Below, piece after piece: positions 21,815 through 63,472 of a stretch of DNA of 64,000 nucleotides (the first letter of the stretch is position 1; every line of letters starts with the position of its first letter). The notes under the pieces were generated by a model. The model did not search any database. It saw only the letters and a program-made list of their open reading frames with translations, and was not told the origin of the DNA. The stretch covers positions 3,358,922-3,422,921 of the forward strand of contig NC_092678.1 in the NCBI RefSeq assembly GCF_964355755.1, written 5' to 3'. A program made the translations under genes and the position numbers. This stretch comes from Antedon mediterranea. Its lineage: Eukaryota > Echinodermata > Crinoidea > Comatulida > Antedonidae.

Positions 21815-23595
21815 AGAATACAAAGATCTACAGACTTTTAAAAAACCAAAACGTTTATAAACTTTAAAAAAAAAAGAAAAAAAAAAAGAATACAAACAAA
21901 ACAAAAACCACCTCTTCTCCAAGAGCCGTACATCCTCATGCTTAAGTGTTGTTTTGGTTGTTCTGCCAACTAAGATGACAAACCAAAAAGGTCAATTTGA
22001 TTTTACTATGAAGTACTCCAACAATTTGACATGAAAATACCCACAGAAATTGGATACTAACCACCAGACTATGCATGTAGAGTAGACTCTACCATTGCTA
22101 GAGTGCGCCTACCGATGTTAAAGTGCGCCTACCGATGTTAGAGCACGCCTACCAATGTTAGAGCAAGTCTACTGAAGAGTGTGAGCCTATGGAAGAGTGC
22201 GTGCCTACGGAAGAGTGCGTGCCTACGGAAGAGTGCGTGCCTACGGAAGAGTGCGTGCCTACGGAAGAGTGCGTGCCTACGGAAGAGTGCGAGCCTACGG
22301 AAGAGTGCGAGCCTACGGAAGAGTGCGTGCCTACGGAAGAGTGCGTGCCTACGGAAGAATGCGTGCCTACCGAAGAGTGCGATCCTACCGAAGAGTGCGA
22401 TCCTACCAAAGAGTGCGATCCAACCATAGAGGACATGCCTACATTAGAGTGCGAGCCTACCGAAGAGTACGAGCCTACATCTGCTGAAGAAGCTGCTAAG
22501 GGAAGTACAAGCCTACAGCTGCTTCAGAAGTACAAGCCAACCGCAGCTGAGAAGTACGAGCCTACAGCTGCTACAGAAGTACCAGCCTACATAGTACCAG
22601 CCTATCACTGCTAAAGAGTGCGAGCCTAGAGCTGCTAAAGAGCGCAAGCCTACAGCTGCTAAAGAGTACAAGCCTACACCTGCTATTAATTGCGAGCCTA
22701 CAGCTGTTAAAGAGTGGGAGCCTACAGCTGCTAAAGAGTGCGAGCCTAACGCTATTAAGAATGTGAGCCTAACGCTATTAAGAATGCGAACTAACTCTAT
22801 TAAGAATGCGAGCCTAACGCTATTATGAATGCGAGCCTACTGCTATTAAAGAGTGCAAGCCTAACGCTAATGAGAGTGCGAGTCTAACACTAGTAAGAAT
22901 GCGAGCCTACGGCTATTAAGAGAGCGAACCTAACTCTAGTAAGAGTGCGAGCCTAACGCTATTATGAGTGCGAGCCTACAACTGCTAAAGTACAAGCCTA
23001 CAGCTGCTAAAGAGTGCGAGCCTATACAGCTGCTAAAGAGTGCGAGCCTAACGCTATTAAGAATGCGAACTAACTCTATTAAGAATGCGAGTCTAACGCT
23101 ATTAAGAATGCGAGCCTACTGCTATTAAAGAGTGCAAGCCTAACTCTAGTAAGAGTGCGAGCCTAATGCTTAACGCTATTATGAGTGCGAGCCTAACGCT
23201 ACCAAGAGTGCTAGCCTAACGCTATTAAGAGTGTGAAGTAGATCCCCTATAACATCAGTAGACAAACGCTAACACCAGTAGACAAACGCTAACACCAGTA
23301 GACGAACTTTAACAATGGTAGAGTCTACTCTACAAGCATTTGTCCAGTGGTTAATAACCAATTTCCATAGGTAATTCCATGTCAAATCATTGGAGAACTC
23401 CAAAGTCTAACCAAATTGGCCTTTTCGGTTTGCCTCTTAGTGGGCAGAACAACCAAAACAAAACAAAAAGCATGGGGATGTACAGGAGTCGGAGAGGAGG
23501 TAGTTTTACAAAGTACAAACAAGCAAACAAAACGTTTATAAACGTTTTGGATTTTTAAAAGTCTGTAGAGCTTATAACATAAAATTCTAAATAAA
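21815..23595. mobile_element. Foldback-type element: about 280-bp inverted arms around a minisatellite core
   Basis: The left arm (21815-22110) and right arm (about 23290-23595) are reverse complements of each other. Shared landmarks in order from outside: CTACAGACTTTTAAAAA, CCAAAACGTTTATAAAC, GTACATCC(T/C)CATGCTT, TTTTGGTTGTTCTGCC, ATTTGACATG and GTAGAGTAGACTCTACCATT. Divergence is moderate, with small indels. The core is made of 18-22-bp repeats. This architecture resembles FB/Galileo-like foldback transposons. The outer end and any target duplication were not located. Confidence 0.75.
22090..23240 (+). repeat. 18-22-bp minisatellite core of the foldback element
   Basis: At 22180-22430 an 18-bp unit (GAAGAGTGCGTGCCTACG) repeats about 13 times. 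It grades rightwards into 21-23-bp variants built on GAGTGCGAGCCTA plus GCTGCTAAA or ACGCTATTAA. The 18-bp part is open in all three forward frames and one reverse frame (EECVPT, RVRAYG, KSACLR, SSVGTH). Unit variants change amino acids freely (V, E, D at the fourth position), which argues against a constrained protein. Confidence 0.9.
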
Positions 23596-36964: not shown

Positions 36965-37400
36965 TTAGGCTAGGACATGAGTCTAAGTTTTATTATTATA
37001 AATAATATCATGCAAAAACCTACACACGTGTTAACCAGTTTTTGAAGGCCTGAGGCAGAGGGAGCTAACACAACCAAATCATCAGCATAGCATAAATGAT
37101 TAAAACATGCATTGTTAAAATAACATCCATATCTACTTTTACCAAGAGACGTACTGAGAGCGTCAACATATATATTGTATAATAGAGGAGACATTACACC
37201 CCCTTGCCTTACACCATTTGTAACTGGGAAACTATCCGATAAACAGTTACCCCATCTGACTAGAAACCGTTGTTGTTGATACCAGGACACAAGGAACCTA
37301 ATCACAACAAGAGGCACATTTCTCTCAATAAGCGTTCTAAAATGGGAGTGTTGGCAGCATGTATGTGTCTATTTAACATACCATTATTAATAGAAAGAGA
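36965..37400 (-). pseudogene. LINE reverse-transcriptase fragment (FADD/YADD palm)
   Basis: Minus-strand frame: LIERNVPLVVIRFLVSWYQQ, then NGVRQGGVMSPLLYNIYVD and HLCYADDLVVLAPSASGLQK. These are RT motifs 4 (G.RQGG.LSP) and 5 (YADD). The N-terminal palm, fingers and endonuclease are missing. The fragment sits between the satellite and the family module at 37.4-37.7 kb. Confidence 0.85.
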
Positions 37401-54416: not shown

Positions 54417-54540
54417 TTATACAGAGAGAGCATAATGTATATTCATCATTCCATTCACAAATCAAATGTAACCAAAATAATGAATGAATATTAAATTTAT
54501 ATGTATTTTAAAATTTTATATTATTTTTTTTTATATAGAT

Positions 54541-55011
54541 ATGAAGATATCCAATGCCCATCTTCAACCATTATCTACCACCATACGTTTTATCGCATAC
54601 GGAGTTCATGGCTTTCTTGACGAAATCGTTTTTACAGCATTATGGCAACTAGTGTTTGAATCATTTGACCCTCGTTTAATTGGCTACACATCGTTGTATT
54701 CATTCATAATTTACGGAACAGGTAGTTTTATAATTGAACGTATATATCTTCGCCTACAAGAAAAAGACGTTGCGTGCATTGTACGGGTGTTTATATACAC
54801 ACTGATAGCATACGCTGTGGAATTAAGCTCCGGTTTAGTTTTAAGACAATTTGATGCATGTCCATGGGATTATAGTGACCGGTCAATGAACTTTATGGGA
54901 CTTATAACGCTGACATATGCCCCTGGATGGGCGCTTCTGGGCTACTGGCAAGAAGTATTTTCTGGATTTTTATTAAGTTTACGACAACCTGTGAAGATGA
55001 AGCAGAAATGA
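54541..55011 (+). CDS. TMEM229B: TMEM229 family multi-pass membrane protein (156 aa)
   Basis: Single coding exon. Shared landmarks with vertebrate TMEM229B in order: IAYGVHGFLDEIVFTALWQL, IYGTGSFIIERIYLRLQ, FIYTLIAYAVELSSG, LRQFDACPWDYSD and MNFMGLITLTYAPGW. Four hydrophobic segments (about residues 18-40, 50-68, 84-104, 120-145) fit a small four-pass protein. In vertebrates TMEM229B has no established biochemical activity, so function is unknown. The ATG at 54541 is preferred over one at 54484 because a splice acceptor (TTATATAG) ends at 54538 and the earlier codons lie in the T-rich tract. Separation of paralogues A and B in invertebrates is not certain. Confidence 0.9.
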   Translation: MKISNAHLQPLSTTIRFIAYGVHGFLDEIVFTALWQLVFESFDPRLIGYTSLYSFIIYGTGSFIIERIYLRLQEKDVACIVRVFIYTLIAYAVELSSGLVLRQFDACPWDYSDRSMNFMGLITLTYAPGWALLGYWQEVFSGFLLSLRQPVKMKQK

Positions 55012-56169: not shown

Positions 56170-59100
56170 TTAAATCAAGGCTTTTAAGTGCCATTCATTA
56201 TCCACTAAAGACTTGATAATTTGCTTGCTTCTGTTTGGCCAAATTGGATGAAGTTCACGACTCAATTTATCTGCAATTTCATTTGCTGCCTCTACAGGAG
56301 TGATATTGTCATCTTCAGCTTTCTTTAAAATCTTGTTAGTAATGTTGAATATCTGTGAATATATATAATACATTTATTTATTGAATTGCACTATATCTAA
56401 GAGTTGAACATGTTCACTGGCAGGGCCAAAGACTGGTCTCCCAGAGGGGGCAGTTATGATCAGTGGCTGTGATGTACTAAGTACACTGGGATAACCCTAC
56501 TTGTCCCAAACGATGTACTAGGTTCTTTAAAGTACACATGAGCTAGATGTGTACACTCATGGACTTACGTTTATAGTCCGAAAAGACTCGTTCTACCTAC
56601 CACCAGAACCATGGATCGAGTGAGCTTTGAACCCTTGGCGATGTTATGGCTACGTAATTACAGTTCCACTGTCTTAACCGCTGAGCCATTCACTCGCTCT
56701 TAAGGGTCTTTCACACCTGTTCCGGCACGGTTCCGGTCCGGCGCCCAATCGAACGTCAATGTTTCGTTTTTACGCGGCTAAGCGCATATCGATTGGCGCA
56801 TAGCCGTGTGGAGAGTCGTGAAAACGAAACATTGATGTTCGATTCGCCGGACCGGAACCGTGCCGGAACAGGTGTGAAAGACCCTTTAGGGAGTTTCTTG
56901 GTTAACCATTGTAAAATTTACGACTAAAATAGATTTTTTTAAAAACATAGAAAGCTAATACCATTGTTTTGAAGGTGGATGTTACATATTTTCACATTAA
57001 GGCATATTAGTTCACCAATATTTAAAATGTAAACAACCATTGAAATTATGTATACCATTATCTAACCCCAAACTACCGTACTCACCGAATTCTCCCATTC
57101 CTTGTTAAAATGACGAGTAATAGCTGGATCGTCCGGTAGTCTTCCGTAAACCTCATTTGCGCAATTTACAATACCCTGGAAAAAGTAATAATAAATATTA
57201 TCCTATATGCAGTGTGGTGACATCACACAATAACTACCTTTTAAAATAAGTTCCACATTATTATTAGGCATCATGTTTTAAATAAGCGTCTTATAATTAT
57301 TAGTACTGCATATAAATAAATGTAGTTTTGTAATTTGATCAATCACAATTGATAGATTATTTGATTGATTTGGTTATTTGCAAAAGGGCTACGTCCTTTG
57401 TTGTATCTCTGTTGGGAGCCAAGCTTATAAAAAGAGGCTTTATCAAAATAAGTGCTCCATTGTATCGGTGGTACTTATAAAGTGTTGATGAAATAAATAT
57501 ACATATAGTATATATTTACCATTCTATTAGCTAGAAAGTCAACAATGTAAGAGATGCCTCTTTCCTTCAGCAACTCGTTATCTGCTGGGCATCCCAGCTG
57601 GTTGTTGGCTGCACCGCATACAATCTTAGCATTTATCATAGGAATCGTATCTGCATTTAAAACCTGTGAATAAATAACTTTGTTCAAGTAATCTAGAAAC
57701 AGTGGCATAACGGCTTAATGGCTAAACCCAGAGACTCTCAGCAGTGTCCAGAAGAAAAAACAGGAATTAAAATATGTCAATAAAGGCTAAAAACGTCCAA
57801 GGCCTCCAGCGTTGGAGGGCCACTTAGGGTTCCTAAACCAGAAGCCTCAGGTCTCTACATTACGCCACTGTATAGAGGACCTCTTAATATCGGTTCTTTT
57901 TAATAAAGAATCTGCACAGTTTATCCTTTTTAAAGAACGAGTAAACTAGAAGGGCACATATATACAGAAAGATTTTTAACTTAACCCTGGGACCGCTGTT
58001 GTTTTTAACTTACGTTTCCTAGAGCACAAGGAGAGAATATATCACACGGATAACCTGCTACCGAATTGTCATCAATCTCAACTTTCTCAACTTGTAAAAT
58101 ATCTTTATACTGTAAATGAAACAAAATGTCATAGATTTAATACGATATGATATTATTTATTGTCATTCAAAGGTAAAAATGAAATGAATGAAATTTATTT
58201 TGGTTGAATTAACATACAATTAGACAAATGAATACAATATATAAAGCTTCGTAACCAGTGGGAAAGAGACCCTACAAACTATTAATACATGAATTGAATT
58301 ATAAAGAAATGATTGTTGGCAGCGTTTAGTGTTTGATACCAAATATGGTAGTGATATGCCCAAATATGGTAGTAATATGACATCATCATGTCTATATATC
58401 GGCACATCACATTTTTTTGTCATATAAAATTTAATAGTGTAGACAAGGCTTTATGCGAGTAAGAAAAATGGGGGATGAAAAACACCTCCAAGACTATCCG
58501 AAGACTTGGGAAGTCTGTAATAAAACCTGCTGTCGAAATGAATATAGCATTTGAGAGCTGGTTACCTTTGGATAGAACCGGTTTCTCATGTCCGTTACTC
58601 GTATCTGATGACAATCTGTCACGTAGATGTGCGATACGCCTTTTTGCAGCAGCTCTTCTACTATCACAGTTGCTAGGAAACAAGTAAACAGTGGATTAAA
58701 TCAATTATCATTAAATTATTTTTTTGCTTTAAATTACATTTAAAATGGTATATTCAACAAAAATGTGAAGAAAAAAATTGTTTAGGGGGACAATATATCT
58801 TTAAGGAATGTCTGTAGAATATCATAGATCACAGGTAAGACTGTGTGTAACTTTACACAGATGACTGTCTTACCAACATTACCGGCTCCTTGGATTGCAA
58901 TACGTTTCCCTACCAATGTACCCATGTTAAGGTAGTCCAAGGCTCCTTCCATTGCACAAACAACACCTACAAATGAAGAACACAGCATACATGAAACAGT
59001 ATTATAAATTATAAATTTGTTAGAAACTCATAGTGTTCTGTAAACCTAAATATAGGGTGTATTGCTGACCAAACTTAATGCGGGAATATTAACTGTACTC

Positions 59101-62100
59101 ACCTTTTCCCGTTGCGATTGAGGGATTGCCGGATCCACCCTTGACTTCTGATATACATGTTGTATAGCGTGTGAACATGTGCACATTGTCCAAGTCAGAC
59201 ACATTTAAGCCGACGTCCTCCGCAGCAACTAAAACAATATTCAGAAATTATATAGAAATATTAATATTTTGTAGTTGGATATCTGAAAAAATGATGTTTT
59301 ATGAGATGATTGTTTCTCATAATAGTACTATATAGTACTGTAGTGGAGCTGTAGCTTGGTGGTTAACGTGCTTGCCTTCCAATCCCAAGGTTCAGGGTTC
59401 AATCCTGACCTAGAGCCAGGGTTCAATTCTGATCTAGTTCCAGGATTGTAACTCACAACTCTTTCAACTCCACTCCCTAAGTCTCTAATAAGCACGATAA
59501 ATTATATAATAGTTTATCCATCCTGTAATTGGCGAGTTTGTGCTCGCTGTAGGATGCGTAGGAAATAAAACAGTTACTATATTCAATTCAAATGGTCCCC
59601 TTCCATCATTCACCACACAAAGGTTTAAATGCAGAAAATACTACACATTTGGTTGCAACTTTCTTATTTATAAAACATGGCATTAAAAATGATTACTGAT
59701 AATTTTTTGTGCATACATTTTTTTGCAACACAATGCATGCATTTACAAAACTTTTTTTAGAATAACAAACCAATGAATCAGTGTTTTCAAAGTTATCAAT
59801 CATCATTATCATATTGTTGAACCAAAAGTGTGTGCAATATTAATATATTAAAACATTGAAAACTGACATGCAAGTGGCAGTGTGCAGATTAAAAAACATT
59901 GTGTTATTCCTTTTATATACTACACCCTCCCCCCTTTTTAAAAAATTTAAATTAGAGACAAAATGCTGAACTTTATAAAGCTAACAAAGCAGCAAACATA
60001 CCAATGCAACCATTCAGAGAAGAGAAAAAGCAGCCCAAGTCATAGAAAAGTTGCGTACGAAACTCGGGCTGTCGATGATGCTTATCAGGTGGTTCAGGAA
60101 CAAGTCCTATACCGCCACCATACCTCAAAAAATGCAGAATTAGAGTACACATATTAATCAGTGCAAACAAATAAACATAAAATGTACAGCTTTAGCATGT
60201 GATAGAGAGCAGATGGAATATGTTATTAAACTATGTCTATCTGCACTATCAAACTAGTTTGACAAAAAAAGTGTGATGTGCCCAAAAAAGGTAGTGATAT
60301 ATCCAAATATGGTAGTGATATGACATCATCATGTCCATAGGCACATCACATTTTTTTGCTATATAAAGTTTGACAGTGTAGACAGAGCTTAAGGTTATTT
60401 TTATAATAATAGTAGAAGAATAAATTACAGTAACCCAAAGGACAATAAGAAATATTTTCTAGGAACATATAAAAAAGTCCATTTGGTATGTAAACCTACA
60501 TTTATGGAGATTATGATGTAATTAGGATGATCAATTGTTGTTTATATAATTATGACATTATATTTATGTTATGCAACGAAATGTCTTTATAACATATAGT
60601 ATCCCTTAAAAACCACCCAACATGCATTTTTAAGAGCTAAATCCTTGTTATTGTAATATTATTTTAATAAGACAACCACTGTGTTTCGTAAAGGTCACTA
60701 AATTAGGAATACCAGTAGGTGTATAATAATAGAAAGTTGAAGGCTATGTTAATAGACCAGATGGCGTACACATGCACCAAATTGATATTCTAGGCTGTAA
60801 AATTTGCATCAAGTCAAAGATACAGTACTTAAAATTATGAATGAGATTAAAACGTAGAATATTAAATATACTGTATTAAATAAGAGTTTAAAGGCTTCAG
60901 TTGAATAATCTGGAATAAATTATTAAATTTGATAAAGATTTTTACCATAGAATTGGCCACTAAACAAAATAATGACTGATTTCACTTAATAATAGTTCTA
61001 TTAGTTTTACGTGATCTTTTAATTAAATAAATCGACTGTGAAAGGTCCAGAAAAACAGTTGAAATTTATATACAACTAGTATTATTTGGTCGTGTTCTTT
61101 CTTCTTTTAGTTATGGGTCATTACATGAATACACAATTGTATGATGTATTGATCCCATTGTCACAAATCAATTTGTTACTAATATTAATACAACATTTCT
61201 GAATAAATATTTAATTTGTATCATATGTATTATTTATTATTAGAGCACCATAATTCTGGGAGCATATAATATTAATAGAAAGAATTAGTAGAGCAGTATA
61301 AAAAACAAAATTAAACAAAAAAATACAAACATGAAAATTAATAATATCTATGAGAAAGTAACAAAAAAGAAAGAATGAAATTAAAATTGAAGGAGGGTAA
61401 CTCTACCATAACAGCCATTGAGAGAGGAGAGAAACTCTCCATAATCATAGAACAAAGAAGTACGAAATTCTGGGTCCTTGTGGTTGTCTGATGGTGGCTC
61501 CTGGATAACGCCCTTGCCGCCACCGGCCCTGCGGAACAGAACGATGCTAATAAATGGTGCCAAATCACAAGAAAAGAACACTTGCAATGCAAATTAGATT
61601 AGATATTTAAAACTACGATGAAAATTATATTTTAATAATATTATAAGCAGTAATGTGGTAAAAAGTAATATTATTTGAATAAAATAAAAGGTACTTTATT
61701 TCAATGTAATCATGATATTACTTGTTTAATCATTTTTATAATTATTAGTATCTTAAATTGGTAACTGTATATATATAGCCTTAGTATTACCTTCATATGA
61801 ATAATTATGGGCTCAAGAGAGAATATTCTAGACAAATTTGTTTGATACTTTTTGCATGTCACTGGAATTACAAGTGCGGTGTTATCGCAAGAATTTGTTA
61901 TGTATTTATGTACGTAAACTTTTAGTATTAACAGTTATGAACAATCTAGAGTTATTCTTTACCATAAGCCAGCAAGGGCCGACTTGACTCCCATACCCTG
62001 TCCAAGGCGTAGACCATCTCGTAGGTATGCTTCCATGTCCGCGTAATCCCACAAGCGTATACCACCGCACTAGGTAAAAATAAAATAGATTATTATATTA

Positions 62101-62819
62101 TATTTTTATTAAAACAAAAGTTATATTTAAAAAAAAATCTGAAATTTGAAAAGAGGCATTATCTTAATTTTCTCCTATAATATCTCAATGAGCTTGCTTC
62201 TACTGAAAAAAAAAACCACCAAACTTATTAATTAATTGTAAAATGATGCAAATAACCAAAAACAATTAAAATTTACCGCCTGTCCCCGGTTTGTTCGCCA
62301 TATAAATGCACCAAGAAGACAATTTGTTCGCTTTCCTAACTGCATAAAAATGCCTTCATGTTCGTCAAAATCTACTTTGTCTTTTAACAAAAACAATTTT
62401 AATTCTTCAAGAAGTCCTGGATGCGAAACTTTCACCGCCTTTTCTTCGGGATCAAATACTAAATACAGACGTCTGATATTTTCAGCTTTTAAATAGTCAA
62501 TGAAATTCTGAGGAGATAACTTCAATAAAGACGTTTTGGAAGAGGCTGACCCTGTATTAGCAACTAGAGGGGTTGTTAAGAATGTCCGATGGCTGGATAG
62601 AGGCCAGGCCGCAGCACTACCACCACGAAGAGCTCCACGACCGGTTTCATCCTGCCGGTTTTTGTGGAGGAACACTGACTGCCGCTTGTTGAATCGATGG
62701 CCTTCGTGGTTATAATTAAAAGAGTTGCATGCAATATTACGAACGTTTAGATTCAATAATGTTGGTGAAATATAGCGTTTAGCAGAATATCTGAAATTAT
62801 TAAGTGATAATGCCATCAT
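56170..62819 (-). CDS. Leucine-dehydrogenase-like ELFV amino-acid dehydrogenase, mitochondrial (536 aa)
   Basis: Exons on minus: 62819-62277, 62069-61963, 61528-61407 (3a), 59228-59103, 58966-58874, 58672-58566, 58109-58014, 57663-57520, 57175-57086, 56352-56170; 1611 nt in frame. Exon 3b (60123-60002) can replace 3a. Landmarks shared with bacterial leucine/phenylalanine dehydrogenases: CGGIRLWDYADMEAYLRDGL, GMGVKSALAGLWAGGGKGV (the two active-site lysines), VAAEDVG (catalytic Asp), GSGNPSIATGKG, the NAD-binding loop AIQGAGNVG, CDIFSPCALG and CGAANNQL. The enzymes reversibly deaminate branched-chain or aromatic amino acids with NAD. The roughly 180-residue first exon starts MMALSLNNFRYSAKRYISPT, Arg/Ser-rich and acid-poor, which fits a mitochondrial presequence. 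It makes the protein much longer than the bacterial form (about 365 aa). Substrate is not predictable. SINE and MITE copies lie in the introns. Confidence 0.88.
56412..56698 (-). mobile_element. tRNA-derived SINE, copy 2
   Basis: Minus-strand A box GAATGGCTCAGCGGTTAAG (56691-56673) and B box GGTTCAAAGC (56633-56624), with the same body as the copy at 39165-39430 (GTACTAGGTTCTTTAAAGT, GAGCTAGATGTGTACACT). It lies in the last dehydrogenase intron, next to MITE B. Confidence 0.82.
56703..56885. mobile_element. Near-palindromic Harbinger-like MITE, family B (TTA target duplication)
   Basis: AGGGTCTTTCACACCTGTTC + CGGCACGGTTCCGGTCCGGC is mirrored at the right end over about 75 bp per arm, with TTA on both flanks (56700-56702, 56886-56888). 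The TTA (TWA) duplication and short G-rich terminus fit PIF/Harbinger. Strikingly GC-rich compared with its surroundings. Confidence 0.9.
58340..58450. mobile_element. Harbinger-like MITE, family A, copy 12 (left end reduced)
   Basis: CCAAATATGGTAGTGATATG, GACATCATCATGTCTATATA, then ATAGTGTAGACAAGGCT + TTA. It lies in a dehydrogenase intron. Confidence 0.75.
59335..59590 (+). mobile_element. tRNA-derived SINE, second family
   Basis: A box TAGCTTGGTGGTTAACG (59352-59368) and B box GGGTTCAATCC (59395-59405), with a duplicated GGGTTCAAT(T/C)CTGA(T/C)CTAG phrase after it. The tail is A/T-rich (GGAAATAAAACAGTTACTAT). The body differs from the SINE at 39 and 56 kb. It lies between exon 3b and exon 4 of the dehydrogenase. 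Confidence 0.8.
60002..60123 (-). CDS. Exon 3b: alternative, same-phase copy of dehydrogenase exon 3
   Basis: This 122-nt exon has borders TTTTTTGAG/G and G/GTATGT and encodes 40 residues aligned without gaps to exon 3a. Shared: GGG-G, EPPD/S, PEFRT, LFYD, SSLNGC. It reads WYGGGIGLVPEPP where 3a reads WAGGGKGVIQEPP, so the active-site lysine becomes isoleucine. Both exons start in phase 2 and end in phase 1; since 122 is not a multiple of three, using both or neither breaks the frame. Many identical residues use different codons (PEFRT, LFYD, NGC), consistent with selection on the protein. The GAG acceptor is weaker than the CAG of 3a. Confidence 0.75.
60230..60389. mobile_element. Harbinger-like MITE, family A, copy 13 (TAA target duplication)
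   Basis: ACTATGTCTATCTGCACTAT to GTTTGACAGTGTAGACAGAG + CT, with TAA on both sides (60227-60229, 60390-60392). It lies between dehydrogenase exons 3a and 3b. Confidence 0.9.
60400..61370. other. Intron between exons 3a and 3b, otherwise featureless
   Basis: About 1 kb of AT-rich intron. I found no additional exon-3-like copy in it. Confidence 0.55.
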
Positions 62820-63106: not shown

Positions 63107-63472
63107 ATGTTTAAGGTAAGTATAAGAATATAAAGTCTAAATAATAACTTAACAGACGAATGCTATATGTAAGTGTATATTTAAACTTAAAAAAATTAAT
63201 TCATAGACCAAGATATTCATATACAGACCGACGATTTTCGGTCAAGAATTGAGGTAGGCTAGGGTAGCTGAATACAGATCACTCCGGCCGCGCTTCACTC
63301 CGGCCGCGCTTCAATCCGGCCGCGATTCATCCGGCCGCAACTATGGAGCGCCCATAGTCTTCAACCGAGACACGTTTTTTGTAGAGAATCAAAATAAACA
63401 TTTGTAATCATATTCAGTATATTTTTTCTCTTTCAGGATCACAACAACATCGCAAGTGTTTTAAATTAGGTC
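63107..63472 (+). ncRNA. Candidate two-exon transcript at the right edge (13-codon ORF or 5' UTR)
   Basis: ATGTTTAAG/GTAAGTATAAG gives a perfect donor after 63115. TTTTTTCTCTTTCAG/GATC gives a strong acceptor at 63436. Spliced, the ATG reads only MFKDHNNIASVLN then stops at about 63472. It may therefore be a non-coding RNA, a microprotein, or the 5' end of a gene continuing right. Divergent from the dehydrogenase. Confidence 0.3.
63288..63345. repeat. GC-rich 15-bp repeat (TCCGGCCGCGCTTCA), four copies
   Basis: Four near-identical units within the putative intron 63116-63436, the only strongly GC-rich simple repeat in the right third. Confidence 0.8.

Follow-up and report, generated by a model that had tools for sequence, protein, structure and literature searches.

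Mutually exclusive exons (MXEs) that alter the catalytic residues of an enzyme are already known, if rare, and the exon pair described here is a new case with an unusually clear-cut predicted consequence. One survey lists nine MXE events that affect catalytic sites, including that of Drosophila CG42249, in which, as in the crinoid pair, homologous exons differ at key catalytic residues (PMC7954323). CG42249 belongs to a different enzyme class (a probable nucleotidase), whereas exon 3b of the crinoid gene drops a single, well-studied lysine for which the mutant phenotype is known. Exons 4a and 4b of OGDH, the E1 component of 2-oxoglutarate dehydrogenase, resemble the crinoid pair in that an ancient exon duplication in a mitochondrial metabolic dehydrogenase produced two exons whose combined length is not a multiple of three and whose exchange alters the behavior of the enzyme (PMC7969005). 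The OGDH swap toggles a calcium-binding regulatory motif, and its exclusivity rests on a short intron with distant branch points (PMC7969005); the swap of 3a for 3b would toggle the general base, and the two exons are separated by an intron of 1283 nt. The PKM1/PKM2 pair is likewise a case of MXEs in a metabolic enzyme, where the exchange changes the regulation of the oligomer (discussed in PMC7954323).

In this report, we describe a dehydrogenase gene in a window of 64,000 nucleotides (the whole stretch of DNA that was analyzed), which is part of contig C9 of a eukaryotic assembly of 18 contigs and 354 Mb. We propose, with a probability of roughly 0.7, that exons 3a and 3b of this gene are mutually exclusive and would give rise to one active isoform and one catalytically impaired isoform. 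Exon 3, which encodes the catalytic-lysine loop and the next helix, would have been duplicated in tandem long ago, and each mRNA would contain a single copy, either 3a or 3b. Isoform a, with the equivalents of Lys68, Lys80, and Asp115 of leucine dehydrogenase (LeuDH), is expected to be catalytically active as an NAD-dependent L-amino-acid dehydrogenase. Isoform b would have isoleucine in place of the general-base lysine, with its fold, its NAD domain, and its counterparts of Lys68 and Asp115 retained; we expect it to have almost no oxidative deamination activity, and it is probably a subunit with a role in regulation or binding. Should isoform b be made, the locus would provide a natural experiment with two proteins that differ only in a segment of 41 residues, one with and the other without the general base. 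It would also permit a direct test of whether pseudo-enzymes made by splicing enter mixed oligomers and thereby regulate their active counterparts, and the MXEs of metabolic enzymes (OGDH, PKM) would be extended to the removal of catalysis itself.

Gene structure and protein family

The dehydrogenase gene is located on the minus strand of the window, from the ATG at 62819 to the TAA at 56170. All exon borders were re-derived, and all of the introns have GT donors and AG acceptors. Exon 1 (62277..62819, 543 nt) encodes the start methionine, a basic N-terminal extension, and the start of the N-terminal domain, and exon 2 (61963..62069, 107 nt) contributes the first active-site lysine, in the sequence GMGVKSALAG (the LeuDH Lys68 equivalent). 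Exon 3a (61407..61528, 122 nt) carries the GGGKG version of the next motif, with the catalytic lysine equivalent to Lys80. Exon 3b (60002..60123, 122 nt) is the homologue of 3a and reads GGGIG, the lysine and an invariant tyrosine both being replaced by isoleucine. These values are the same as those given in the first-pass annotation, which had described the two exons as 122 nt each, identical in phase, and gap-free. The intron between them (60124..61406, 1283 nt) has a MITE-like repeat inside. Exon 4 (59103..59228, 126 nt) encodes VAAEDVG with the catalytic aspartate (the Asp115 equivalent), and the NAD-binding domain begins in exon 5 (58874..58966) with GAGNV. The remaining exons are 6 (58566..58672), 7 (58014..58109), 8 (57520..57663), 9 (57086..57175), and 10 (56170..56352), the last of which includes the TAA stop codon.

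The best structure match of isoform a was found to be the bacterial leucine dehydrogenase 6acf (E = 4e-60, residues 142-505), and the Pfam matches were PF02812 and PF00208. The best NCBIfam model was that of the ScyB tryptophan dehydrogenase (NF035922), with a score far below the curated cut-off of 600 bits. Judged by these matches, the last of them below its cut-off, the encoded protein is an amino-acid dehydrogenase of the ELFV family whose substrate is uncertain, and the label "leucine dehydrogenase" holds at the family level. In the alignment with LeuDH, isoform a carries the lysine of GVKSALAG, the lysine of GGGKG, and the aspartate of AEDVG, which we take to be Lys68, Lys80, and Asp115, respectively, in the established numbering. 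All three are found in isoform a only, since isoform b is without the Lys80 equivalent.

The homology of isoform a to the bacterial leucine dehydrogenases (6acf, 1leh) and ScyB (NF035922) extends over about 360 residues, and isoform a has in common with them the equivalents of Lys68, Lys80, and Asp115 and the NAD motif. Unlike its bacterial relatives, with which the identity is about 42%, the crinoid gene has introns and a long N-terminal extension, its protein has an insertion of 5 residues in the PEFRT region, and its isoform b has lost Lys80. The first 60 amino acids contain 9 K/R versus 3 D/E; in composition the N-terminus resembles a mitochondrial presequence, and the protein is probably mitochondrial.

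By protein search, the dehydrogenase gene is present as a single copy in the 354-Mb assembly, as is exon 3b, and an ordinary ELFV gene of the glutamate-dehydrogenase type is carried on another contig, C6. Among the viral and genome contig collections no animal-type orthologues were found, only bacterial and marine-contig relatives, which served to assess the conservation of residues. A literature search returned no paper on a metazoan leucine dehydrogenase and none that links leucine dehydrogenase to mutually exclusive exons; the locus points to a type of eukaryotic leucine-dehydrogenase-like gene on which that search found no paper.

Divergence of exons 3a and 3b

When aligned ungapped over their full 122 nt, 3a and 3b are identical at 73 nucleotides and at 26 of the 41 encoded amino acids, and the tblastn comparison of the two within the window gives E = 5e-12. 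The runner-up among the ungapped 122-mers within the gene matches at only 50 positions. The homology ends at the exon borders, no mutual similarity being found between the flanking introns, and within the window there are no further copies of exon 3 and no duplicates of other exons. It is extremely unlikely that 3b is a product of chance or of the assembly (a haplotype duplicate or a fragment of a paralogue), a reading in favor of which nothing was found and which is at odds with the strength of this homology. The first-pass annotation had raised the question of separate haplotypes, and this origin, together with that from a paralogue, is ruled out because the locus is single-copy on one large contig that carries both exons, and because the saturated synonymous divergence is incompatible with haplotypes.

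Different codons are used for 15 of the 26 shared residues, and the nucleotide differences at codon positions 1, 2, and 3 number 13, 9, and 27, respectively. Pairwise codon maximum likelihood gave a saturated synonymous divergence and an omega well below 1, and omega = 1 was rejected for the pair (2 delta lnL of 30). A model with 3a constrained and 3b neutral since the duplication was worse than a model of shared constraint by a 2 delta lnL of 17, the two models having an equal number of parameters and being fitted to two sequences only. In simulations of neutral decay from 3a, an open frame together with 26/41 identity was obtained in 4% of the runs at 0.3 substitutions per site and in 0 of 1000 at 0.5 substitutions per site. 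The rejection of a neutral 3b argues that this exon has been held as coding sequence through most of its long history, in agreement with the earlier suggestion that it is under selection.

Because the synonymous sites are saturated, the test for selection on 3b reports a long-term average, and this leaves room for a recent relaxation or loss of function. Exon 3b might then be a former alternative exon that was functional for a long time, was abandoned recently, and is now decaying. The GAG acceptor of 3b and the two invariant residues that it has lost would be expected from such a history. We nevertheless consider it unlikely, for 3b is free of stops and indels, its donor and branch-like sequence are intact, and its frame still fits both of its neighbors.

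Predicted consequence of the exon swap

The contrast of GGGKG in 3a with GGGIG in 3b, noted in the first-pass annotation, is correct. The position of Lys80 is occupied by lysine in all 89 distinct relatives (mostly Bacillota, plus 12 divergent contig sequences that are 34-47% identical to the query) and by isoleucine in 3b. A tyrosine near the end of exon 3 is equally invariant (89/89) and is also isoleucine in 3b; this replacement and the GAG acceptor of 3b are two points that the earlier description did not contain. Where 3a agrees with the family consensus, 3b has two further changes, both conservative (Val to Leu and Ile to Val), and it retains the three glycines, the Phe, the Gly, and the Leu-Asn-Gly turn. 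According to the mutagenesis of Sekimoto et al. (1993; reviewed in PMC12018205), Lys80 of LeuDH acts as the general base, the mutant enzyme having 1.5% of the wild-type deamination activity. The first-pass annotation, which called the GGGKG lysine an established active-site residue, is upheld on the loss of this residue from 3b.

The scores for the dimerization domain (PF02812) were determined to be 39.4 bits for isoform a and 32.7 bits for isoform b, relative to a cut-off of 25.3 bits, and those for the best NCBIfam model were 202 and 186 bits, respectively. With the Lys68 equivalent also kept, these values uphold the view that isoform b would retain the fold, the VKSALAG lysine, and the NAD domain. 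Isoform b has the pattern of a pseudo-enzyme, in which an essential catalytic residue, the general base, is lost (Lys to Ile) while the fold appears to be kept (PF02812 above the cut-off), and from this pattern we infer that it is likely to be catalytically inactive. Both PKM1 and PKM2 are active, unlike the predicted isoform b.

A functional isoform b could instead be a catalytically different enzyme, with the hydrophobic residue remodeling the pocket and changing the substrate or the reaction. Selection has preserved 26 of the 41 residues and the whole fold, with no loss of structural glycines or of the Leu-Asn-Gly turn, and the MXE enzymes already known mostly alter kinetics or regulation (PMC7954323; OGDH 4a/4b). 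Such a change of function is improbable, however, given that the residue replaced is the general base of the family, conserved in 89 of 89 relatives, and that its replacement costs about 98% of the activity. Under the preferred reading of a catalytically impaired isoform b, a more far-reaching and rather doubtful extension is that one animal-type gene might encode, through mutually exclusive splicing, both an amino-acid dehydrogenase and its own pseudo-enzyme, distinguished by the general-base lysine, and that the two would co-assemble into mixed oligomers by which the catabolism of amino acids is adjusted to the tissue or stage.

Reading frame, splice sites, and introns

Isoforms a and b were spliced in silico, and each was found to be an uninterrupted open reading frame of 536 amino acids with a terminal stop, so that 3a and 3b both join exons 2 and 4 across GT/AG borders, as had been claimed. 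The earlier statement that the use of both or neither exon would shift the frame also held: the first stop is at residue 262 with 3a followed by 3b, at residue 305 in the reverse order, and at residue 227 with neither. The two exons are therefore adjacent, homologous, and of the same phase, with compatible lengths and splice sites, and the frame that is restored by either one is broken by joint use or skipping. Frame incompatibility is a recognized route by which exclusivity is enforced (PMC7969005; PMC5740500), and MXE pairs that are frameshifted by joint inclusion are a common validated class, with validated human MXEs among them (PMC5740500). For 3a and 3b, exclusivity would be enforced at the latest once the mRNA is spliced, since a transcript with both exons or with neither is frameshifted and would be exposed to nonsense-mediated decay. 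It is likely that 3b is spliced into mRNA.

The splice sites of 3b (60002..60123) are the acceptor gag|G and the donor gtatgt. Its acceptor (...tttttgag|G) has G at position -3, where C or T is found in all 9 of the gene's remaining acceptors. A GAG acceptor is rare and weak, which argues mildly against efficient use, and 3b may be little used. The donor of 3a (ATG|gtagag) is the lowest-scoring donor of the gene by a matrix taken from general knowledge. A 3a-3b junction would combine this donor with the only GAG acceptor, the two poorest sites of the gene, and would be the least favored; the other borders of 3a and 3b are ordinary, and the pattern is suggestive but weak as an indication of exclusivity. 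It also bears on the idea that 3b is mainly a switch of abundance (a poison exon), whose inclusion with 3a, ending at the stop at residue 262, would send the mRNA to nonsense-mediated decay. We give this idea very little credence, since a poison exon has no need of amino-acid conservation, yet 3b is conserved as protein, and the junction that it requires is the least favored one.

Other devices for exclusivity were considered, and none was clearly seen. All of the donors look to be of the U2 type, and U12/U2 incompatibility does not apply. Steric hindrance and a distant branch point are not applicable because the intervening intron is 1283 nt long, and a branch-like ctctaat precedes the acceptor of 3b by about 20 nt. 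For intron-intron pairing of the docking/selector kind, the best duplexes were at or near the levels of shuffled sequence, and none was clearly above; the strongest, which involves a repeat, had a value of -27.0 versus a minimum of -26.5 in 12 shuffles of this single sequence.

The MITE-like repeat in the 3a/3b intron (60230-60387, minus strand) is about 158 nt long with inverted arms of 47 nt; genome-wide, about 2,400 candidates were seen, and about 40 copies were scored, with 87-91% identity. By eye, a related sequence can be recognized near 58340-58450 in intron 6. A repeat-like stretch in the intron that precedes exon 4 (59330-59570) includes two tandem units of 24 nt (CAGGGTTCAATCCTGA...) and is similar to a tRNA-derived SINE (B-box-like GGTTCAA). 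Intron 9 contains a fold-back element (56698-56890), in which GGGTCTTTCACACCTGTTCCGGCACGG... and its complement form a long inverted repeat that is nearly perfect; the element is followed by tRNA-SINE-like sequence to about 56440.

Adjoining the dehydrogenase gene is an open frame on the plus strand (54484-55011) with a match to PF06541 of 37 bits (cut-off of 25.9), the product of which is perhaps a small, TMEM229-like protein that spans the membrane several times. A reverse-transcriptase fragment (36970-37368, minus strand; PF00078, 50 bits) is a retroelement remnant, and a tandem repeat at 22158-22614 is open on both strands (SSVGSH and PTEECV repeats). Short tandem repeats of the GCGGCCGGA type are found at 63280-63350, about 500 nt upstream of the dehydrogenase start codon, and are GC-rich amid an AT-rich region.
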